DNA of 64,000 nt. Source: Caballeronia pedi. Its GTDB lineage: Bacteria; Pseudomonadota; Gammaproteobacteria; Burkholderiales; Burkholderiaceae. Location of the stretch: assembly GCF_001544915.2 (NCBI RefSeq), contig NZ_FCOE02000004.1:248001-312000 (forward strand), in the 5' to 3' direction. Each line of letters begins with the position of its first letter. The first letter of the stretch is position 1. Of this stretch, positions 6,500 to 44,743 are shown in pieces. The notes under the pieces were generated by a model. That model did no database searches and was not told the origin of the DNA. It saw nothing but the letters and a program-made list of their open reading frames with translations. The position numbers and the translations under genes are program-made.

Positions 6500-6700
6500 G
6501 TGCTCAAAACACCATGTCTAGCGGTCAAGCCACCCCGTCAGTCCGTGGCTTTTGTTTCGCCTATTGGTTTTGCTCCAATGGGCGGGAGTGCGGCTAATAA
6601 AAGACCCGCAAGGGGAATATGCCCGCCGTCTAGACACGGTTTTGAGCTCCTGCCCACCCGTCTCAAAAACGGGCCGATCGTCTCGTCTAGGAGCAAAGCC
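6500..6700. ncRNA. Structured leader / candidate C4-CI-type regulatory RNA
   Basis: On the plus strand CCCGT (6657-6661) pairs with ACGGG (6669-6673). The hairpin loop CTCAAAA (6662-6668) is a perfect complement of TTTTGAG at 6640-6646, a possible kissing or pseudoknot contact. GCTCCT (6646-6651) is complementary to AGGAGC (6689-6694), the ribosome site of the gene starting at 6701. This resembles the logic of P4 CI / P1 C4 antisense RNAs that control satellite replication operons, but I cannot confirm family membership. A minus-strand terminator at 6356-6383 also allows a leftward transcript, so strand is left open. Confidence 0.4.
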
Positions 6701-7857: not shown

Positions 7858-10568
7858 GCACTGTCTTCGATAATCATCAGCGGATCTTGGAGGCGCTCTC
7901 TTTCATCCCGCCGGACGTTGACCGTGACACGTGGTTTCGCGTTGCTGCTGCCATCAAGCATGAGGAAGGCGATGGCGGCTTCGAGACATTCGACACGTGG
8001 AGTCAGGGTAGCCCGAATTACGCTGCAGCCGACACCCGCGATACGTGGCGCTCGATCAATCCGAATGGCGGCATCACGATCGGCACGTTGTTCGCGATCG
8101 CTAAGAAATACGGATTTAATCCGCGTTCGAAATCGGGAACGGTGATCGATCCGACGGAGGTCGAGCGTCGTCGCGCCGAGCGAGATGCTCGCGTGGCGCA
8201 CGAGTCGCGGCAGCGAGCGGTGGCGCGCAAGCACGCCGCAACGCTTGCGCTTGCCGTCATCGAGAAGGCGTCGCCCGCGCGAGATGACCATCCTTATCTG
8301 AAGCGCAAGGGTCTAGCAGCGGCGACGACCCTTCGCGAACTCGACATTAAGGGGCTTGAAAAGCTTATTGGTTACCGTCCACAGTCCAGTGGCGTGCAGC
8401 TTGAAGGGCGGATCCTCATCGCGCCGGTGATGATCGACGGCGCGATCACCACCGTCGAGATGATCGATGAATCTGGGCGCAAGTCCGCCTTGGCGAACGG
8501 TGAGAAAGCGGGCGGCTGTTGGTTTGCATGCTCCCCATCGAATGAATGCGAGCGCCTCCTCATCGCCGAAGGTGTCGCGACGGCGCTATCAGCCTATCTG
8601 TGCACGGGCCACCCGACGGTGGCCGCGCTCTCGGCGGGCAACCTGACGAAGGCTGCTCAGGCGATGCAGACTGCCCATCCGAACGTCGAAATCACCGTCC
8701 TCGGCGACCTCGGAAACGGGCAACAAAAGGCGATCGAAGCGGCGCGAGCCGTCGCGGGCGCCGTCGCCTTGCCCGAGTTCGGCGACGAACGCGGTGAGGA
8801 GGATACCGACTTCAACGACATGCACGTGCGGTTCGGGGCGGCCGCTGTTGCTGCACAGATCGCGGCCGCCACGTCTCCCGTCGACGGCGATCAGCCCGAC
8901 AAGGATTGTGTGCCCCGCGGCTTTACAGTGACCGAACGCGGTGTCTTTTATAAGGATGATGACGGAATGCCGCACTGGATTTGCTCGCCGCTTCACGTTC
9001 GTGCACTGGTGCGCGATCGTGCCTCGGAGAATTGGGGGCGACTACTAGAATGGAAGGACGCTGACGATCACCCTCATGTCTGGGCCATGCCGATGGAAAT
9101 GTTGCGTTCAGACGGTGCGGACATGCGCGGCGAGCTCGCTCGGTTGGGGCTGGACATCTCCCCTAGTTTCCGCGCGCGCAACAAGCTGACGGAATACGTG
9201 ACGACAGCCAAACCAAAAGCTCGTGGGCGGTGCGTCACGCGCACCGGCTGGCACAACGGCGCGTTCGTATTTCCGGACCGGACGATCGGCGAGTCAGACG
9301 AGCGCGTGATCTTCCAATCGGAAGTCGTGATGCGCACGTATTCGCAAGCCGGCACACTGGAGGACTGGAAGCGCGACGTTGCGGCTTACTGCTCGGGCAA
9401 CTCCCGGATGCTCGTTGCCGTGTCGACCGCGTTCGCGGGAATGATGCTGGCGTACTCGGGACAAGAATCGGGTGGGCTGAACATCGTCGGCGATTCGTCG
9501 ACGGGCAAGACGACGGCGCTTCGAGCGGCGTGTAGCGTCTACGGCGGTCCCGACTATATGCAGCGGTGGCGTGCGACGTCGAATGGCCTCGAAGGTCTTG
9601 CAGCACTTCATAACGATACGCTGCTCGTGCTCGACGAGCTGGCGCAAGTCGATCCGCGCGAAGCGGGCGAGATCGCCTACATGCTAGCAAACGGCACTGG
9701 AAAGGCACGCGCGGGGCGAACCGGCTCGGCGCGGGCCAGGCAATCGTGGCGGCTGCTGTTCCTGTCGGCCGGTGAGATCGGGCTCGCGCAACACATGCAG
9801 GCTGGGGGCAAGAAGGCCAAGGCGGGTCAGGAGGTACGGTTGGTCGAGATCCCGGCCGATGCGGGTCAGGGCTTCGGTCTCTTCGAAACGCTGCACGGGC
9901 AAGCCGGCGGCGCGCAGCTCTCGGCGTTGATCAACGAGGGCTGCGCCCGTAGTTACGGCGTGGCGGCGATCGAAATGCTCAAGGCGCTAGCGAAGGAGCC
10001 GGATGTGATCGAACAGTACCTGCGTCAGGAGACCGCGACGTTCCTTGCCGAGCACTTACCGGCTGACGCTAATGGCCAGGCACATCGCGTGTGTCAGCGG
10101 CTCGCCCTCATCGGACTGGCAGGCGAGTACGCGACGGATCGCGGAATCACTGGATGGCACACCGGTGAAGCACTCGCAGCGGCGGCGGCGTGTTTCCGAG
10201 CATGGTTAGAGAATCGAGGCGGCGCAGGCAATCACGAGCACGCTGCAATCCTCTCGCACGTAAAGGCATTCTTCGAGGCCCACGAAGAATCGCGATTCAC
10301 CGACCTCAATGATGTTTCGGACCGTCCAACCATTAATCGCGCCGGGTTTAGGCGCGCAGTTGATGGAGCTTCGGAATACCTTGTCTTCCCGGAAGTTTTT
10401 AAGCGCGAGGTATCTCAAGGCTTTGATCCGAAAAGCGCTGCCAAAGTGCTTGTGGATGCGGGTTGGATCCGCGGTTCGCCCGACGGGAAGTATCAACGAG
10501 TAGAGCGCATTCCGGGGAAAGGGACCACACGCGTCTATGTATTCACTTCCCGCGTCTGGTCTTCGTAA
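7854..10568 (+). CDS. TOPRIM / DUF927 primase-helicase
   Basis: A 904-residue replication protein. Order: a PriCT-2-like region (residues about 10-85, SFIPPDVDRDTWFRVAAAIKHE), a zinc-less linker, a TOPRIM domain (about 230-320: LLIAEGVATALS with the conserved Glu, and VLGDLGN as the acidic motif), then a DUF927 SF3-like ATPase with Walker A GDSSTGKTT (near 545) and Walker B LLVLDELAQVD (near 590). Such proteins prime and unwind DNA for P4-like satellites and integrative elements. The GGAGGGCGG ribosome site and ATGA overlap couple it to the preceding gene. The iterons just downstream are its likely origin targets. Full length and apparently intact. Confidence 0.92.
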   Translation: MSTVFDNHQRILEALSFIPPDVDRDTWFRVAAAIKHEEGDGGFETFDTWSQGSPNYAAADTRDTWRSINPNGGITIGTLFAIAKKYGFNPRSKSGTVIDPTEVERRRAERDARVAHESRQRAVARKHAATLALAVIEKASPARDDHPYLKRKGLAAATTLRELDIKGLEKLIGYRPQSSGVQLEGRILIAPVMIDGAITTVEMIDESGRKSALANGEKAGGCWFACSPSNECERLLIAEGVATALSAYLCTGHPTVAALSAGNLTKAAQAMQTAHPNVEITVLGDLGNGQQKAIEAARAVAGAVALPEFGDERGEEDTDFNDMHVRFGAAAVAAQIAAATSPVDGDQPDKDCVPRGFTVTERGVFYKDDDGMPHWICSPLHVRALVRDRASENWGRLLEWKDADDHPHVWAMPMEMLRSDGADMRGELARLGLDISPSFRARNKLTEYVTTAKPKARGRCVTRTGWHNGAFVFPDRTIGESDERVIFQSEVVMRTYSQAGTLEDWKRDVAAYCSGNSRMLVAVSTAFAGMMLAYSGQESGGLNIVGDSSTGKTTALRAACSVYGGPDYMQRWRATSNGLEGLAALHNDTLLVLDELAQVDPREAGEIAYMLANGTGKARAGRTGSARARQSWRLLFLSAGEIGLAQHMQAGGKKAKAGQEVRLVEIPADAGQGFGLFETLHGQAGGAQLSALINEGCARSYGVAAIEMLKALAKEPDVIEQYLRQETATFLAEHLPADANGQAHRVCQRLALIGLAGEYATDRGITGWHTGEALAAAAACFRAWLENRGGAGNHEHAAILSHVKAFFEAHEESRFTDLNDVSDRPTINRAGFRRAVDGASEYLVFPEVFKREVSQGFDPKSAAKVLVDAGWIRGSPDGKYQRVERIPGKGTTRVYVFTSRVWSS

Positions 10569-10595
10569 CGCATCTCTCGCGATCATCGAAAAGTC

Positions 10596-10832
10596 GGTGT
10601 AACTGGTGTAGCAGGTGTAACGCATCCTCGAAAGCCCTGTCGCGTAAGCCTTTCTGCGTTACACCAGCTACGCAATCGCGTTACACCGTTACACCGACAC
10701 CTGCCCCCATGCTAGACCGTGTTACACCTGGAGGTGTAACACGCAATCGGTGTAACGCAATCGGTGTAACGCGGAGAGTCTTGCCCAGCTTGGGTTTGCG
10801 GCTAACGTTACACCTGCTACACCTGTTACACC
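10596..10832. repeat. GGTGTAAC iteron field, probable replication origin
   Basis: Eleven exact copies of GGTGTAAC or its complement: plus at 10596, 10614, 10733, 10749 and 10763; minus at 10658, 10680, 10688, 10721, 10807 and 10825. Two one-base variants lie at 10605 (GGTGTAGC) and 10816 (GCTACACC). The triple at 10596-10621 recurs in inverted order at 10807-10832 with one mismatch, GCAATCGGTGTAAC is repeated twice in tandem (10743-10770), and 10719-10742 is a palindrome. This parallels the P4 ori/crr iterons bound by its alpha primase. Position right after the primase gene supports an origin. Confidence 0.8.
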
Positions 10833-10885
10833 AAAATTGTGTGGCGGGTAGAACTGCGAGTGCGAGCCAGCGGAGGTCGCGAACA

Positions 10886-10905
10886 GCGTAACAGCCGTAA
10901 CAGCG
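10886..10905 (+). repeat. GTAACAG direct repeats beside an A-tract
   Basis: GCGTAACAG and CCGTAACAG follow each other directly, and a run of eight or more A residues starts just after, near 10907. The TAAC core matches the iterons upstream but the flank differs (CAG instead of GGTG), like the second cluster at 11715. The A-tract could be a duplex-opening element. Confidence 0.5.
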
Positions 10906-11714
10906 GAAAAAAAACGGATGCGTAATAGTTTTTTGGAAGTGCATCATAGCGCTGGGCAGTTGAATCGGCCCGCGCGGAACTTGGTTGCCATGTGGCTTTG
11001 TGTTTTGTGCATGACTAAGCACGGTGGTTCGGCGTATGTTGAGAAGCGGATGTTCGAAATAGTGGGGCGATCATTGCACCGGCCAATTCGTAAAGTGAGC
11101 GAAGTTATCTCGGATATACGGAGAGTCCCGCGCTTTTAGCCAAACTGCGTATGCGCCCGCTAGAAAGTTGAAGATTAATAATATTGCGGCTAGAGTCTTG
11201 AGGAATTTCATGCCAATCATAGTAACTTTGGTTTGGTAGTATTGGAGATATAATCATCGCCTCTCGATATCAGAGGTCTGTACGTAATACGGAGGTCGTC
11301 TCTCTTTATGACAGGTGCTATTAGACAAGAAGCCGGGCTGCTCGCAAATCTGACTTGTCCTGAAAATGAACGCATTTCGTTCCTGAGATGATTCCTTCGG
11401 ACTTAGGTTGGCTGATGATGCTCTCGGAGCCTGGAGGAGTGCCGACCTCGCTGCGCATTGCGAGCGTCGCAAAACCTACGCGGAATCGGTTTTGAGGTAG
11501 GCGAAACGCCCACCTTGCGGAGATATGTGAAACGGGTTCTGCTAAATGCTGGGCAGACCCTCTGTGGTTCATGCTGTGGCCGAAAGCTTGGCCGCTGCTC
11601 TACCCCCAACGAGGGTTGAACGAGACACTCATCTCGAGTGGCGACGGAAACGAAATGGGCGACTGAACCGACGTCCCTTTTTCTTATACGTAGTGGCGAG
11701 AAAGTGGCGATGCA
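10906..11714. other. Noncoding gap between the two repeat clusters
   Basis: About 800 bases with no convincing gene on either strand; the short frames present are unlike proteins. Composition is mixed and locally A+T-rich near 11150-11250. In P4 the origin and the crr repeat cluster are likewise separated, so this may be spacer within the replication region. Confidence 0.4.
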
Positions 11715-11812
11715 CTGTTACAGCTCTCCGCTGTTACGCTTGCGCAGTTACGCGCGAAGCCCGGCCCAGCAAGGGTTCAAGGAATTCTGTAACAGCGTTA
11801 CTGCTGTAACAG
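11715..11812. repeat. Second repeat cluster, CTGTAAC/GTTACAG type
   Basis: CTGTTAC at 11715 and 11731, CAGTTAC at 11745, CTGTAACAG at 11787 and 11804, and GCGTTACTG at 11796 lie within 100 bases in both orientations. They share the TGTAAC core with the 10.6-10.8 kb iterons. They lie about 900 bases from the first cluster, just before the end of the convergent membrane protein gene. Confidence 0.6.
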
Positions 11813-11854
11813 CGAAAAATATAGATGACTGAGACCTTTCCGGGACCGACTCGT

Positions 11855-12679
11855 CTAGGCTCTGGGATCCGGTGCAGATTCGGCTGCCAACGGGGCGTGC
11901 GCGACTTCCTTGGGACCCTCGCCCCACCACTTACCGATTTCGACAGAAATCTTCGTCAGACGCAGCGCCAACGCAGAGGCAAGCAGCACCGCTCCCACTT
12001 GCTTCATCGTGTCATCAGGCTCTTTGATCGGAGATTTTTGTTGCGACGGCAGGTAGTTCAGCGCTCGAACGGCCTCCTCTCCATTTTTGAGCCACTCTCG
12101 AACACTCCATGGGAGGTTGGGAAGCGTGAGTCCATATTTGACGATGTCGTCGAGCGCGCTCAATAACGTTGAAAGGTCGTTCGAGTTACCGACTTCGTTT
12201 CCCTTTTGTGTAGCTTTTGAGATGAGCGAGCGAATTTCGATACAGGCTCTTCCTTGATCATTTGCACGGCACTGGTCGGCTTCTGGACCAGTCAAGCCAA
12301 TCGGCCAGGATTTGATGTCGTTTCGGATGTTCTCCGCAAATTCGGCGTATATCCGCGTCGACTCTTGATTTTCCAAAACGATCGCGCCTACGATGAGCCC
12401 GACGACAGCCGTTGACACGTACAGATAGTCCATTAGCTTGGGCAAATGGGGCGACGCATCTTCCCGACGTGCATAGCAACACCAATGAAACACAACTAGG
12501 CCAACGATAAACGTGGATATGACGATAGCGTAAACGACGCTCACAGATTCGCGATGCTGGCGGTGATACCAAAGCGCCACAATCAAACCGAGGACTGGAA
12601 CGATTACCAGCATACACAACAGCAGGAAGATGGCATCACCCAGTACTCGCTTGGTCATTGGGCGGGCAGGTCCAAGCAT
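11855..12679 (-). CDS. Multi-pass membrane protein of unknown function
   Basis: A 274-residue protein with three clear N-terminal membrane helices (about residues 13-37, 46-70 and 82-103), a long soluble C-terminal part of about 120 residues (TRIYAEFAENIRNDIKSWP ... SVREWLKNGEEAVRALNYL) and a weak fourth hydrophobic helix (about 228-245). It reads toward the element's replication region from its right side, a place where satellites often carry cargo such as phage-interference genes. I do not recognise the family, and the cargo idea is inference. Confidence 0.7.
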   Translation of the reverse strand: MLGPARPMTKRVLGDAIFLLLCMLVIVPVLGLIVALWYHRQHRESVSVVYAIVISTFIVGLVVFHWCCYARREDASPHLPKLMDYLYVSTAVVGLIVGAIVLENQESTRIYAEFAENIRNDIKSWPIGLTGPEADQCRANDQGRACIEIRSLISKATQKGNEVGNSNDLSTLLSALDDIVKYGLTLPNLPWSVREWLKNGEEAVRALNYLPSQQKSPIKEPDDTMKQVGAVLLASALALRLTKISVEIGKWWGEGPKEVAHAPLAAESAPDPRA

Positions 12680-38830: not shown

Positions 38831-39470
38831 GTTCGGACCACCTCACCAATCGGCTGATCACCTTTTGCCAAGACGACCGCGGCGGCATCGTCTCTCATCG
38901 ATCGGTTAAGAGCTTCTGATATTTCTTGTGAAGCGAAGCAAACTCTCCCCAAGATAAGCCCGAGACTCCCAGCCCAATCCCGCTCTTAACAATTTTTCCC
39001 CAAAAGAAGACGATCCGCCCCTTCGAGTCGTTATTGATCCCCTTCTCTTCCTGGTCTCACGATTTCACGATTTCACCTTGATGTTGAAATCCTTGATCCC
39101 GGGATGGCAGCGCAACTCCGTCATTCGGATGTTGTCCGGCTTGGGTCCCATGTTCCCCGAGCTGACAGTCGTCCCGTAGTACAAGTGCGGCGCGTCACAT
39201 TCGTCCTCCACCGTCGCGATGTCCACCAACAGATCGCTTAGCTTGCGAGCGATTTCGGACCGGGAAGCACGAGGTACTTGTACCGGTTGACGATGTCTCA
39301 CAAATCGCTTGCGGCCGACCTGAGCCCCGCTGCTCGCAAAGTGGGCATCTGACGCTTCTCGCCAAGGAATCGGCCTTGGCGCGGTTCTCGCGCTTTCTTT
39401 GGCGCGCTGGGTTTCAAATTCACGCAACGGTGCAGATCCAAGAAAAGCACATTGAGGCATTGAGGCATGG
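38831..39470. other. Stretch with a possible decayed minus-strand gene
   Basis: About 640 bases without a convincing gene. On the minus strand the segment 39065-39250 reads LSDLLVDIATVEDECDAPHLYYGTTVSSGNMGPKPDNIRMTELRCHPGIKDFNIKVK, which looks protein-like, but the frame upstream degenerates into low-complexity sequence. It may be the 3' end of a decayed gene. Confidence 0.4.
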
Positions 39471-40195
39471 GTGACGAACATGAGGGAACGCTCGCTCACG
39501 CCGAGGACGATCGCCAACAATATGGCGCATATCCGCACGGCGCTCGAGGGAATGGGTCGTCGACCGTTCGCTGATCGTATGAGCAACGCAGCCGTCGGCA
39601 TCGCTGGAGCAAGTCGGAGCGGCACCAAGCGGCGGCTCTCACCTGAGGAAGCGCAGCAATATATCGCCCGCGCCGAGGCGATTGACGCAGGTGTGGCTAT
39701 GGTCCTCAGGCTTCAGATGGAGTTCGGTCGTCGCGCGCAGGAAGCGGTTCGCTGTGTACCGTCGCTGCCGGATTGGAGTCGGGTGCTGACCAATGCGGCA
39801 GGCAACGGCATGGTCACCATCGTCCACGGCACGAAGGGAGGGAAGACACGACGTTCTCCGGCTCTCGATGGGAACGATGCTGTCGAATTGGTGCATTCCG
39901 CGCTGGATCTGGCGTGCCGCTCGAACGGTCGTTTGGTGCGTAAGCCGGATCTCAAAAAAAGCGATGGAGCGATACCACTATGTGGTGCGGAAGGTCGGCT
40001 TGGCCGGCGAGATTGCACCTCACAGCCTCGCTACGCATACGCCTGCGAGCACCTTCGAAGGCTCAAGGGCTCGGCATCAGTCGACGCGAAGCCGCTGCGG
40101 GCTTGTCTAAGTGGCTCTGTCACGGCGACGGGCGAGGAACATAGATCGAGACGGTGTACGGCAAGCAGGCTCTGGATGAGGGGCATCATGCATAA
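39471..40195 (+). pseudogene. Integrase (tyrosine recombinase) pseudogene
   Basis: A phage integrase_1-like recombinase broken into pieces. The first frame reads RSLTPRTIANNMAHIRTALEGMGRRPF and later MEFGRRAQEAVRCVPSL (catalytic Arg region), breaks at a run of seven A residues near 39954, continues in a second frame as MERYHYVVRKVGLAGEIAPHSL, then a third frame with RYAYACEHL and a fourth with GISRREAAAGLSKWLCHGDGRGT, an in-frame TAG, then IETVYGKQALDEG with the nucleophile Tyr. Several frameshifts plus a stop make it inactive. Its end overlaps the AlpA pseudogene by 8 bases. Confidence 0.8.
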
Positions 40196-40406
40196 GCACC
40201 TAAACACGCTCCCCCTCGTTGGCCATTCGCGCTGGAGCCGGATCGCTCGGTTCGTTGGAGTGTCCCGGGAGACCTAGCGCAAGATGTGCAAGCCGGGACG
40301 CGCTCCAAAGCCAATCCGGCTGTCAACTCGGTGCACGGTGTGCCTAAACGTGGAAGTCGAGCGGTATCTGCAATCGCCGCTTGAGTATAGGGCGGCGGGT
40401 AGCTGA
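40188..40406 (+). pseudogene. AlpA-like regulator interrupted by an amber codon
   Basis: A 72-codon frame, LPLVGHSRWSRIARFVGVSRET then TAG at 40275-40277, then RKMCKPGRAPKPIRLSTRCTVCLNVEVERYL. Without the TAG it is a good AlpA/helix-turn-helix match (SRWSRIA..VGVSRETWRKM.K.GRAPKPIRL), the lost residue being Trp (TGG to TAG, one base). Only the interruption spoils it, and ATG 40188 overlaps the integrase pseudogene end, as in intact elements. Confidence 0.75.
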
Positions 40407-40471
40407 ATCGCTTGATGGTCGTGCCCGACGCAATCTATACTCAATCTATTCAGAATCTAATCGGGTTGAGA

Positions 40472-40702
40472 ATGGCACGCGCCAGCGCTGTCGAGACTAA
40501 AAAGCTACAGTTGACGGTTGATTTGGCGACAGATCACGTTATTGGTGAAATCGTGTCGCTTGGTCTTCACGGAACCAACAAGGCCGAGGTAGCGTGTTCG
40601 ATTATCCGGATGTGGCTTTGGGACAATCAAGGGAAGCTCCGCGATAATGGCATCAATTTGCGGCGGAAAGGCTCATCCCAGATTGAGAACGGGGGCGGTT
40701 GA
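40472..40702 (+). CDS. Small RHH-like protein
   Basis: A 76-residue protein with a beta strand then two helices: KKLQLTVDLATDHVIGEIVSLGLHGTNKAEVACSIIRMWLWDN. The pattern LT(V/L)...L...V.LG.HG..KAEV...II..WL resembles CopG/Arc-type ribbon-helix-helix regulators. Its TGA overlaps the ATG of the next gene (TGATG), the first of four such overlaps in this operon, so it may be the operon's autoregulator. ATG 40472 is chosen; an in-frame start at 40412 lacks a site. Confidence 0.55.
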   Translation: MARASAVETKKLQLTVDLATDHVIGEIVSLGLHGTNKAEVACSIIRMWLWDNQGKLRDNGINLRRKGSSQIENGGG

Positions 40703-41469
40703 TGGCTCGGTATCGTCAGCTAGCGAGGGCTCCAGTTCGTGAGGCGCTTATCGATTTTCGCTTTGAGCCCGCTGTTTCACTCGATGTGATTGACCGGTTT
40801 GTCGAAAAAATCCGAGACGCATACGGCGAAAAGTTGGATCTATGGGAAGCCGTGTTTGGCCTTGATAGCGATGAAGGCCGCATGTCGACGCATCAAACCG
40901 GACCGCGTGCAGTCGGACGTCGATTGACGTCAGCCGGCGAGCGGACTTTCGTCGTCCAGGCGCGAATAGCGGGCTTCACGCTCAGCCGCCTGTACCCGTA
41001 TGGAAGATGGGAAGATTTGAAGGGGGAAGCGCAGAGGCTTTGGGGCTTGTTCGTTAAGGAGACGGGCGCCGTTACCGTGAGCCGCATCGCGGTCCGATAC
41101 ATCAATGAAATCGTGCTGCCGCTACCGTTTGACGATTTCGCGGAGTTTTTGACCTGCCCCCCACAGGTTCCACCGGCGCTTCCTCAGTCGATAACCGGGT
41201 TTTTGTCGCGGGTCACAATCCCTGAGGCTGAGTACGACTGCACTTCGGTTGTTACTCAACTGCTGGAAGGCGCTCCGAATTTTGGTCCGAACGGAGCATC
41301 AGTGACGGTGGTGTTGGACATTGATGTATGGCGAGAATGCCGAGTTGCGCCAGAGCAATCGCAGCACCTTTGGGACTGCCTTGACGTGCTTCGAGATCGG
41401 AAAAACAGCATGTTCTTCGAACACATTACCGAAAAGACGGCCGAAATATATGAGCACGATCGCACTTGA
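40702..41469 (+). CDS. TIGR04255-like family protein
   Basis: A 255-residue protein matching, from memory, the sporadically distributed TIGR04255 family: RAPVREALIDFRFEP at the N terminus, RLYPYGRWEDLKGEAQRLWGLFVKETGAVTVSRIAVRYINEIVLPLP in the middle and SMFFEHITEKTAEIY at the end. The family is found scattered among bacteria and often near defence or mobile genes; no function is established to my knowledge. It starts inside the stop of the RHH-like gene and its end overlaps the next start at 41450 by 20 bases, so the cluster is a tightly coupled operon. Confidence 0.7.
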   Translation: MARYRQLARAPVREALIDFRFEPAVSLDVIDRFVEKIRDAYGEKLDLWEAVFGLDSDEGRMSTHQTGPRAVGRRLTSAGERTFVVQARIAGFTLSRLYPYGRWEDLKGEAQRLWGLFVKETGAVTVSRIAVRYINEIVLPLPFDDFAEFLTCPPQVPPALPQSITGFLSRVTIPEAEYDCTSVVTQLLEGAPNFGPNGASVTVVLDIDVWRECRVAPEQSQHLWDCLDVLRDRKNSMFFEHITEKTAEIYEHDRT

Positions 41470-41920
41470 CCCCAGATATCATAGTGGCAGCGCTAACCTC
41501 TCATCCCCAGCGGTTGGCGAGATTGCGAAACGGGTAGGCAAAATTACAGCGAGCGCCGTGGACACGATCAAAGCGCGAGCGACGCGCCGTTCGCATGTCT
41601 TCGAAGATCTCCAGTCGTTGGCAAATGACAATGGTATGGAGGTTCAGCAGGAAACGGCGATGGTGCTAGCTCAGCGATTTCTGCTTGCTCTTCCATTGAA
41701 TCTCCCGACTCCCGAACTTTCGCTAGATGATGACGGAGATGTTTCCCTTGATTGGCTGGGCACCAGAGGCGAAATGTTGACGGTTGCGCTTGCGGGCAAC
41801 GGTCGGCTCGCATATGCAGCGCGTTTCTCCTCTTCAGACAGGGATCACGGAGTTAAACGATTCGTCGATGAAATTCCTCAAAGCGTTATCCAGATTCTGC
41901 AACGGTTTTCGCGCGCCTGA
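41450..41920 (+). CDS. Unknown operon protein
   Basis: A 156-residue protein (MSTIALDPRYHSGSANLSS ... LQRFSRA). The central part, ALPLNLPTPELSLDDDGDVSLDWLGTRGEMLTVALAGNGRLAYAARFSS, is strand-rich with an acidic tract (LDDDGDVSL), reminding me of the partner often found beside TIGR04255-like genes. ATG 41450 overlaps the preceding gene by 20 bases and its 3' end overlaps the next start by 53 bases. No signal peptide, no membrane helix, no catalytic motif seen. Confidence 0.65.
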   Translation: MSTIALDPRYHSGSANLSSPAVGEIAKRVGKITASAVDTIKARATRRSHVFEDLQSLANDNGMEVQQETAMVLAQRFLLALPLNLPTPELSLDDDGDVSLDWLGTRGEMLTVALAGNGRLAYAARFSSSDRDHGVKRFVDEIPQSVIQILQRFSRA

Positions 41921-42371
41921 CAGCAAGCAACGCGAACCAACTCAGACACCAGCGGCACACGCCTTTGTCACTGAATCTGGAGACGTTGCTCGATTCATCT
42001 TCGACAAGCGCGACCTTTTTGCGAATGGTTCACCAAAGCCGAAGCTGTTTCAGCCAATGTGGGATGAAGAGACGGCAAGGTTCGAAACATCCGTCTGCGG
42101 ACTCAACAATGTATCGGACAGCCGGCTTTGGGAGTTGGGTTCGATGATTCGGGCGAAAGAAGGCAAAGCGGCGATTGGAGCGGCAATGCTCGCCATGCCT
42201 CAGATAGCCTCTGCCGGCCTTGCCTGTGAGCCTTGGCCAATGCCCGACTATCCTGAGCATGGCGTCATATTGGGTTGGAGCGTCGACGAAAAAGACGCCC
42301 GGCTGAGTGCTCAACAAGACTTGGTCTCAGCAATAGCATCGGCTCGCGTCAAGAGAAAATCGCAAACTTGA
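41868..42371 (+). CDS. Unknown operon protein
   Basis: A 167-residue protein (MKFLKALSRFCNGFRAPDSKQ ... VSAIASARVKRKSQT). The stretch RFETSVCGLNNVSDSRLWELGSMIRAKEGKAAIGAAMLAMPQIASAGLACEP ... HGVILGWSVDEKDARLSAQQDLVSAI follows a pattern I associate with a widespread uncharacterised family that sits next to TIGR04255-like genes (SVF....W.lG ... GL ... H..I.GW....K.....A..L). ATG 41868 overlaps the preceding gene by 53 bases, unusual but consistent with dense coupling. TGATG joins it to the next gene. Confidence 0.65.
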   Translation: MKFLKALSRFCNGFRAPDSKQREPTQTPAAHAFVTESGDVARFIFDKRDLFANGSPKPKLFQPMWDEETARFETSVCGLNNVSDSRLWELGSMIRAKEGKAAIGAAMLAMPQIASAGLACEPWPMPDYPEHGVILGWSVDEKDARLSAQQDLVSAIASARVKRKSQT

Positions 42372-42874
42372 TGACGGGTCAGATCGTTTTTTTGGTGCAC
42401 GTTGAGGTACACAAAATTTCGTTCATGGCCTATCAGGTGCGCAGTACTTGGGTTCCACTCCGAACTTTCCCTTCTGCATCGAAACAGTTCAGGACGCTCT
42501 TCGACACCAAAGACCGGGCATTCACGTTTCGCCGCTATTCGGGCGGTTTCGGCGGCGCGGTTACTGGCTGGTGCATCTCGTCTGCCGCGAAGGTACGGCC
42601 CTGCATCCTAGTTGAAACGAGAGGCGTGAGCCATGATATCTGGCTCACGCTAGGCCGAGCCGGCATCGACGGATCGGACGCAGCCGCAGGCGTAGCCCTT
42701 AATTCGTACACTAGCGCGTCCGAGTTATGGCTCGAAAAGACAGATCGCGATACGGATGTGGTAAACCCGGATCCGAATGACACGCGCGAGCCGGTGTATT
42801 CGGGAACGCCGCCTGAATCGATCGTCGCGCCAGCGTACACGTCGCAAGCAGGCAACGGGTTGCGCAAGGTTTGA
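42371..42874 (+). CDS. Unknown operon protein
   Basis: A 167-residue protein (MTGQIVFLVHVEVHKISFMAYQ ... TSQAGNGLRKV), starting inside the preceding stop (TGATG). The first 30 residues are beta-rich; the rest is polar with a Gly/Ala-rich middle (GRAGIDGSDAAAGVALNSYTS). No signal peptide, membrane helix or catalytic motif seen. Its junction with the preceding gene makes it part of the same operon. I do not recognise the family. Confidence 0.6.
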   Translation: MTGQIVFLVHVEVHKISFMAYQVRSTWVPLRTFPSASKQFRTLFDTKDRAFTFRRYSGGFGGAVTGWCISSAAKVRPCILVETRGVSHDIWLTLGRAGIDGSDAAAGVALNSYTSASELWLEKTDRDTDVVNPDPNDTREPVYSGTPPESIVAPAYTSQAGNGLRKV

Positions 42875-42878
42875 AGGT

Positions 42879-43214
42879 ATGCAAATTAAGGCAAGTATGC
42901 TTCAAAATTGGAGGCCTTCGACCACATCGATCCCGCAGGCAGCAAACTTCGCCGCAAAAAAAACACCAGGACCACGCGACTACATGCGGAAGCGGCTCGT
43001 CACCCTACGGGTTGCGACATCCGCTGCGGGCGGGTTAAAGAAAGAAATATGGCTGCCGATATCTAGCGTGATGAGGACTTCAGAAGCGGGCTCCGAAGAT
43101 TCGGAGCTGTTCAAAACGCGCCAAGCCGTCGTCGCCAGCCATTTACCGAGTTTGGCGAGTGTTCGAGTGATCGAGGCAATCGCACCAAGCAACACTAGCT
43201 TCAGCGGGACGTGA
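42879..43214 (+). CDS. Unknown operon protein
   Basis: A 111-residue protein (MQIKASMLQNWRPSTTSIPQ ... APSNTSFSGT), basic at first and beta-rich later (RKRLVTLRVATSAAGGLKKEIWLPISSVM). It begins 4 bases after the preceding gene and ends 83 bases before the GHKL ATPase gene, linking the unknown operon to the defence module. An earlier in-frame start exists but would overlap the preceding gene heavily. Confidence 0.5.
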   Translation: MQIKASMLQNWRPSTTSIPQAANFAAKKTPGPRDYMRKRLVTLRVATSAAGGLKKEIWLPISSVMRTSEAGSEDSELFKTRQAVVASHLPSLASVRVIEAIAPSNTSFSGT

Positions 43215-43297
43215 ATCTTCTGCAAAGAGAGACTAGATCCCCAGCACAATCATGCAGGATAACGGGCCGAATCAGTTTTTAAAGGATTCGAAGGTTG

Positions 43298-44743
43298 ATG
43301 AATACGTTAGAAGTAGTGCCGGATCCCATCTCTTTGATGGAATCGATGCGGGCCGTGGGCTACTCCGTTGATGCCGCAATTGCTGATCTGATAGACAACA
43401 GCATTTCCGCGGGCGCAGAACGGATCGATATCGAATACGACGCATCCGACGATCCATTCGTCGCCATTTTGGACGACGGCGTGGGGATGGAGCCAGGCGA
43501 GTTGACCAATGCCATGCGTCATGGCAGTCGAAATCCGGCGCACGAACGCCATCCGAGCGATTTGGGTAGATTCGGCCTAGGGCTTAAGACGGCTTCACTT
43601 TCGCAATGCCGAAGCCTTACCGTCATTAGCAAGGTGCGCAAAGTCATAAGCGCCAGACGCTGGGACTTGGACGTCGTTCAGCATTACGGCCGATGGCTCG
43701 TGGTCGTTCCTGAAGACACCGAGCTTAAGAAACTGCCAATGTTTCGCCGTTTGATGGAGCTGGACTCAGGAACGCTTGTCGTCTGGCAGTCACTGGACAA
43801 ATTAACTGCCGGTGCGCTCGATCCGCAGCAGGAAATGACGATTAAGCTGTCATCGCTGCGTGAACACCTAGCCTTGGTCTTTCACCGCTTCACTCAAAAG
43901 GAAGCCGGATTCGAGCCCGTCCGGATTTCAGTGAATGGCTTGCGTCTCCCGCCTCGCGACCCGTTCCTCAAGAGCAACATGTTCCGTCAGCCACTCGAGG
44001 GACAGATAATCAGACATGCGCGGGGAGACGTTCAGGTCACGCCCTACATTCTTCCGCCCGTCAGAAATCTGACCGCGGACGAGATAGATCTCTCCGGTGG
44101 CAACGAAGGTCTTCGCGGCACGCAGGGGTTTTATATTTACCGAAATCGGCGGCTGGTGATCTGGGGAACCTGGTTCAAGCTTGTGCCCAAGGAAGAGTTC
44201 TTCAAGCTGACCCGCGTGCAGGTCGATATCCCGAATTCCTTCGATGATCTTTGGGCGCTTGATATAAAAAAATCGGTCGCCTACCCGCCTGACGTCATCA
44301 GAACGCGTCTCAGGGAGCTCATCCCTCATTTTGCGAACACGAGTAAGAGAACACTGACCTATCCCGGCCGCAAGCGCAACGCAAAGGACTTTGTCCCGCT
44401 CTGGATGAGAGTTGAACCGTACCACGGCGCTTTCCGCTACGAACTCAATGTAACCCATCCGGCCATAGAGGCGCTTTCGTCGAGGCTCGATAAAGACGAT
44501 CAGAAGTCCTTGTTCGCCTTGCTGGGACTTTTCGGCGACGCGTTGCCGATGGAAGCCATTTACGCGGATATGTGCGCCGATCACCGCAAGAACGACGGTG
44601 CGCAGCTGATTGCGACGCTGATCGAACACGCGACCAATCTGCTCGAAATCACCGGGCTGGACGTCGAGCAGGTCTTGATGATCGACCCGATCGTCCGTTA
44701 TCCGCAACACCACGAGAAACTTCGAGAGGAGCTCGACAAATGA
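43298..44743 (+). CDS. MORC/MutL-like GHKL ATPase
   Basis: A 481-residue GHKL ATPase related to MutL and eukaryotic MORC. The N box is ADLIDNSISAGA (Asn33-34 region), the G1 box is ILDDGVGM (residues 58-64) and the G2 box GRFGLGLKTASLSQ (90-103), after which the S5-fold transducer runs to about 330. Comparative-genomic work by Iyer, Abhiman and Aravind proposed that such proteins act in restriction-modification systems, remodelling DNA in an ATP-driven way. It is the first of four genes joined by ATGA overlaps with Z1, DUF4420 and AIPR genes, with Vsr and a methyltransferase nearby. ATG 43298 is chosen over TTG 43295. Confidence 0.9.
   Translation: MNTLEVVPDPISLMESMRAVGYSVDAAIADLIDNSISAGAERIDIEYDASDDPFVAILDDGVGMEPGELTNAMRHGSRNPAHERHPSDLGRFGLGLKTASLSQCRSLTVISKVRKVISARRWDLDVVQHYGRWLVVVPEDTELKKLPMFRRLMELDSGTLVVWQSLDKLTAGALDPQQEMTIKLSSLREHLALVFHRFTQKEAGFEPVRISVNGLRLPPRDPFLKSNMFRQPLEGQIIRHARGDVQVTPYILPPVRNLTADEIDLSGGNEGLRGTQGFYIYRNRRLVIWGTWFKLVPKEEFFKLTRVQVDIPNSFDDLWALDIKKSVAYPPDVIRTRLRELIPHFANTSKRTLTYPGRKRNAKDFVPLWMRVEPYHGAFRYELNVTHPAIEALSSRLDKDDQKSLFALLGLFGDALPMEAIYADMCADHRKNDGAQLIATLIEHATNLLEITGLDVEQVLMIDPIVRYPQHHEKLREELDK

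Follow-up and report, generated by a model that had tools for sequence, protein, structure and literature searches.

A four-gene TIGR04255 unit in Caballeronia pedi, a candidate toxin-antitoxin-like module with varying third genes

What does a tight run of overlapping genes for uncharacterised proteins do in Caballeronia pedi? The run lies in a stretch of 64,000 nucleotides (the window; contig NZ_FCOE02000004.1, positions 248,001 to 312,000, forward strand) of a 9.14 Mb genome. The initial annotation took it to be one operon of six genes, here called A to F, placed between a dead integrase/AlpA pair and a MORC-type restriction system, and thought a defence or addiction role plausible. The analysis below points instead to a unit of four genes, A to D, built around a protein of the TIGR04255 family. 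The best reading, at somewhat under an even chance, is that A to D form a self-regulated, mobile, toxin-antitoxin-like cargo module, in which TIGR04255 would be a constant platform and the effector would be exchangeable. Features are listed in Table 1. Loci found elsewhere carry L numbers and genomes G numbers; genes outside the window were called with our own script, and the genome searches covered samples.

Table 1. Features in and around the unit, in positions of the window
Feature	Position	Strand	Remarks
Broken integrase and AlpA-like gene	39293..40388	+	integrase 39293-40183, Integrase_1 in Pfam; AlpA-like gene 40188-40388; integrative element
Promoter-like site before A	40412..40441	+	TTGATG-18-TATACT, consensus 9/12
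Predicted operator	40432..40459	+	three AATCTA units, 11-base spacing, overlapping the -10-like box
Gene A	40472..40702	+	76 aa, small regulator-like (ribbon-helix-helix by reading only); relatives before B in L011, L012, L098
Gene B	40702..41469	+	255 aa, TIGR04255; NCBIfam 107.4 bits
Gene C	41450..41920	+	156 aa; other members of its family have a GWDGY-like stretch and an EW/DW strand
Gene D	41868..42371	+	167 aa, predicted ADP-ribosyltransferase-like fold, candidate effector
ORF E	42371..42874	+	C-terminally truncated YqaJ/lambda-type exonuclease remnant; outside the unit
ORF F	42879..43214	+	doubtful gene; outside the unit

The extent of the unit comes first. Genes A to D are four open frames, all on the + strand, that fill 40472-42371. 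A and B are joined by TGATG, as are D and E; B and C overlap by 20 bases, and C and D by 53. The junctions from A to E are therefore as first described. The joining does not extend to F, whose ATG at 42879 lies four bases past the stop of E and leaves no overlap if that start is used. Each of A, B, C and D has a codon score that beats its own other five frames, and their third-position G+C is 0.53-0.61, against 0.66-0.72 in three downstream genes.

E and F are of another kind. Residues 91-165 of E align with Pfam YqaJ over its first half, at 41.6 bits against a cut-off of 22. Of the 20 matches listed of 24 in plasmid records, none starts before residue 54 and all stop at 164-167, which is E's own end; an uninterrupted Burkholderia relative has 330 residues. 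By these alignments E reads as a YqaJ/lambda-type exonuclease cut short, of which the front part is left. F matched nothing in the family-model searches and has no tblastn match in plasmids, its codon score (0.023) is below that of an antisense frame (0.043), and it is probably not a gene. Because E looks like a truncated nuclease and no relatives of F were found, the two appear to be flotsam between the A-D unit and the next system, and on the same grounds the single six-gene operon was given up for a unit of four. A DNA search of 40412-43300 in 61 genomes returned the genome itself and two others, the latter two inside E only.

Does the unit recur? At E up to 0.001, a profile of D matched 3 of the 399 genomes sampled from the order, 3 of the 369 from the class and 5 of the 398 from the family. 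The window's own genome is counted in every sample, and the matches come from nine distinct genomes. In six of them B, C and D stand in order: the window, L011 (in G844, the Trinickia mobilis genome, placed in the same family as the window's genome), L012 (G353), L027 (G199), L098 (G587) and L105 (G988). The other three have short D matches with no B found alongside (G002, L106; G528, L099; G957, L013). That B and its two followers would be a recurrent trio had been suggested at the outset, and it is borne out. A relative of A heads the trio in four of the six (the window, L011, L012 and L098), while L027 has a different small gene in its place and none was seen in L105. In Trinickia and one Hydrogenophilales genome, identity is 70-78% for A and 47-59% for B. 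Not every copy is intact: in L011 B is split and a stop directly follows the start codon of D, and in L027 D contains a stop. A protein search with D gave 13 matches including itself, and six of these share the exact longest-contig size with a B homologue (8521, 1840, 67199, 4553, 3047, and 426906 for the window), which suggests that B and D are linked.

The identity of B is clear. It matches NCBIfam TIGR04255 at 107.4 bits (cut-off 30) over profile positions 2-249 of 252, as the initial annotation had proposed. Structures were predicted for B and for D. That of B has a pLDDT of 95.5, but its fold matches are weak, with no chaperone recognised among the matches listed; a TBP-like reading of the model is kept as a weak one. 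B has no match in phage records and two distant ones in plasmids. The name TIGR04255 was found in none of the 5.39 million open-access papers searched, a library that omits most subscription papers.

D is predicted to have an ADP-ribosyltransferase-like fold and is the candidate effector. It has no Pfam match, hence no Zeta toxin domain, and no sequence similarity in PDB. Across nine relatives R42 and S75 are invariant, the third position would be H131, and there is no invariant glutamate. Tpt1-type ADP-ribosyltransferases are likewise not known to carry the R-S-E triad. R42, S75 and H131 are candidate active-site residues. The best viral model for D is the unnamed A0A9E7QQI2 (E 2.9e-3). D has no match in plasmid or phage records, and a narrow D profile found none in viral contigs; the D of L093 has none in phage records and only itself in viral contigs. 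Gene C has no Pfam or NCBIfam match, and PDB sequence searches with A, B, C and D gave nothing usable.

TIGR04255 itself is more widespread than D. It turns up in 8 of 101 relatives and, at the level of the order, in 34 of 399 genomes, the window's own genome being counted in both. With the window, the 43 loci of the survey make 44 places, and what follows B differs among them. In a regular-expression tally, a D-like motif (R..F..S..H) stands downstream of B at the window and at 12 of the 43 loci, and the background count is 6 of 402 open reading frames (ORFs); the motif is loose, because the second gene in L066 and L076 matched too. A second family, named CDL after its SHDCDL or TQSCDL-like motif (L014, L018, L054, L060 and L069 are examples), follows B in 20 of the 43 loci, L070 and L071 being duplicates of a single sequence, and its motif occurs in 0 of 474 background ORFs. 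Since the two motifs were drawn up with these sequences in view, this tally describes and does not test. CDL members have no Pfam or NCBIfam match in L014, L017, L018 and L019, and no Pfam match in L060. A third class is the Zeta toxin, above the Pfam cut-off in L074, L079 and a plasmid locus, L091, which its own record annotates as zeta toxin. For L075, D-likeness comes from the profile only, with a probability of 62%. Eight of the 43 loci fall in none of these classes, among them L085, which is at a contig end. Readings of the third genes in L081, L059 and L067 as HEPN or NlpC/P60 were made by eye only, had no Pfam support, and were dropped.

Profile comparison finds D-likeness in L026 (the same locus as L012), L027, L064 and L078, and a weaker one in L076. 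C-likeness appears in all five of these and in several more, and L094 has an open C frame. By eye, many of the second genes in L019, L054, L058, L060, L065, L075, L078, L081 and L082 have an N-terminal hydrophobic stretch that resembles a membrane anchor, in several cases with a helix-turn-helix-like motif after it; the window's C has no hydrophobic stretch.

These cassettes also occur in mobile settings. All three viral contigs with a TIGR04255 relative carry B with a C-like and a D-like gene. In L066 a TniQ gene, itself next to TniB, precedes the trio. L012 and L098, in which all four frames are open or nearly so, adjoin the 3' end of mnmE and lie between mnmE and mnmG, with housekeeping genes around. 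L011 follows an integrase, about 7.4 kb downstream of mnmE. The mnmE 3' end has three relatives of the unit downstream of it (L011 1-8606, L012 7011-10483, L098 8506-11732), with an integrase in L011 only. The 3' end of trmE (mnmE) is the known target of SGI1 islands (PMC8409611). No convincing att repeats were found flanking the mnmE-mnmG copies.

In the window the unit follows a broken integrase and a broken AlpA-like gene, as was first described; the integrase matched Pfam, but the AlpA label has no Pfam support. Uninterrupted relatives of both are found in the same genus at L017 (G012:C2 109001-129000, about 7979-11925, reverse strand). There, the AlpA-like gene is followed after 209 bases by a TIGR04255 cassette of the CDL type, with other second and third genes; in the window, 83 bases separate the AlpA-like remnant from the start of A. 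The two look like different cassettes in one slot. A to D read as a compact mobile gene set, with counterparts in other bacteria and, minus gene A, in phages.

How might such a unit be controlled? A has no Pfam match even at E up to 10, a PDB profile search gave nothing usable, and none of five members of its family matched a ribbon-helix-helix model in Pfam, so that label is a reading of the sequence only. The promoter-like site is weak on its own, because 3 kb contain three such sites where 1.3 are expected. The three AATCTA units begin at 40432, 40443 and 40454, a spacing of exactly 11 bases, and the TATACT box falls inside the array. Even when three mismatches are tolerated, the array pattern is unique in the window, and shuffles gave 0.01. 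L012 has an array with two mismatches before its own A gene, and L098 has four units, covered on the other strand by two overlapping matches with three mismatches each. These two arrays were noticed by eye, and the pattern counts were run afterwards. No array was found by pattern search at L011, L027, L105 or L106. Arrays are therefore present in three of the four B-C-D loci with A, and in neither of the two without. Position and this co-occurrence suggest that A is a regulator that binds the AATCTA units; such an array is what an autoregulator on tandem half-sites would need.

Type II toxin-antitoxin systems are expected to have small genes that overlap and run in one direction, with a repeat operator at the promoter, and A to D show this arrangement. 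Together with the mobile settings, the sporadic spread, third genes that vary and include a known toxin, and the ADP-ribosyltransferase-like fold, it makes a toxin-antitoxin-like module the best reading. In such a module A, as a small DNA-binding regulator, would repress the operon through the repeats over the -10 box. D would be the effector. C, whose gene overlaps far into D, would be its cognate partner and most likely neutralise it. B, as the constant platform, would have a sensing, folding or tethering role and work with different effectors across bacteria. When the balance is disturbed, by loss of the element or by phage infection, D would be released and growth would stop.

A related known layout is omega-epsilon-zeta of pSM19035, which also has a small regulator gene first, a repeat operator, and later genes that end in a toxin. 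Zeta-toxin genes are moreover the third gene at some other TIGR04255 loci. However, Omega binds 7-base repeats, NATCACN (PMC4803016), whereas the window has AATCTA every 11 bases. Nor is D a Zeta kinase, and the pSM19035 operon has nothing that corresponds to TIGR04255.

An unlikely special case of the toxin-antitoxin-like module adds a definite trigger: phage-triggered abortive infection of the CmdTAC kind, with B a chaperone or sensor of a phage product, C a labile antitoxin and D the ADP-ribosylating effector. CmdTAC (PMC11618068) shows that a three-part design with such an effector exists, the predicted fold of D agrees with it, and the trio occurs on viral contigs and on integrative or transposon-like elements. 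No sequence match shows kinship, however: with PADLOC 2023 models at E up to 0.1, A, B, D, E and F had no match, and C had two marginal ones (0.013 and 0.019) to unrelated models. The chaperone role is only putative, given the weak fold matches of B.

Nor was enrichment beside defence genes seen at the nine other trio loci scanned. At a PADLOC threshold of 1e-10, 86 neighbour proteins of nine other trio loci matched 20 families, and 85 control proteins of the same genomes matched 40; the comparison counts families, not proteins per locus. Neighbours were up to ten genes around each locus (86 of 96 used, the window's own 10 being left out), and 85 of 98 controls were used (the unused ones being the 10 from L116, two from L113 and one from L115); L011, L027, L064, L076, L082 and L093-L095 lie outside the neighbour scan. 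Control matches were mostly PD-T4-6 kinase models, among the 25 families listed of the 40. Neighbour matches include TnsB, TnsC, TniQ, PglX and methylase models. With two mnmE-mnmG copies among housekeeping genes as well, the special link to defence genes is not upheld. The trio recurs as the system idea required, but the argument from a defence island fails; of the two roles first thought plausible, addiction in a toxin-antitoxin-like sense stays so, and defence, without support from the neighbourhood, is possible. The MORC/Mza system that lies 926 bases downstream of D is a separate, described kind (PMC2292703). A recurrent Mza partnership was rejected, since the nine loci gave one MzaA and one methylase-model neighbour, perhaps the same protein.

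It is also doubtful that A to D are a regulated accessory or metabolic operon, in which D would be inactive or of a housekeeping, Tpt1-like type, with B and C as non-toxic ligand-binding partners. Against Tpt1/KptA tRNA 2'-phosphotransferases stands the lack of PDB similarity of D, whose three residues are a candidate site only. The sporadic spread of D, the Zeta toxin in the same place at other loci and the broken copies in L011 and L027 also argue against such an operon. Least probable, and quite improbable, is that A to D are decaying leftovers with no present function here: the broken integrase and AlpA-like gene, the truncated E, the doubtful F and the decay in L011 and L027 fit this, but the window's A to D are open with codon scores above their other frames, its repeats are kept exactly, and the Trinickia and Hydrogenophilales relatives retain their identity in A and B.

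The window also holds a tRNA-Ala (cgc) at its start (53-128, + strand) and an Rfam sRNA-Xcc1 match (6580-6663, + strand; 76.3 bits, gathering score 53).

A broader proposal is more tentative than the toxin-antitoxin-like module itself. TIGR04255 could mark an undescribed modular class of phage- and element-borne conflict systems, in which the constant protein acts as the sensor or chaperone that fires the effector of a swappable partner-effector pair. The effectors would include the ADP-ribosyltransferase-like proteins, the Zeta kinase, the CDL family and others. This view would explain why the TIGR04255 gene has quite different third genes beside it. It would also give a family found in 34 of 399 sampled genomes of one order a role open to test, that of the fixed component in modules whose effectors can be exchanged. 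Testing would be cheap, given the predicted effector fold, the three candidate residues of the active site and the predicted operator.
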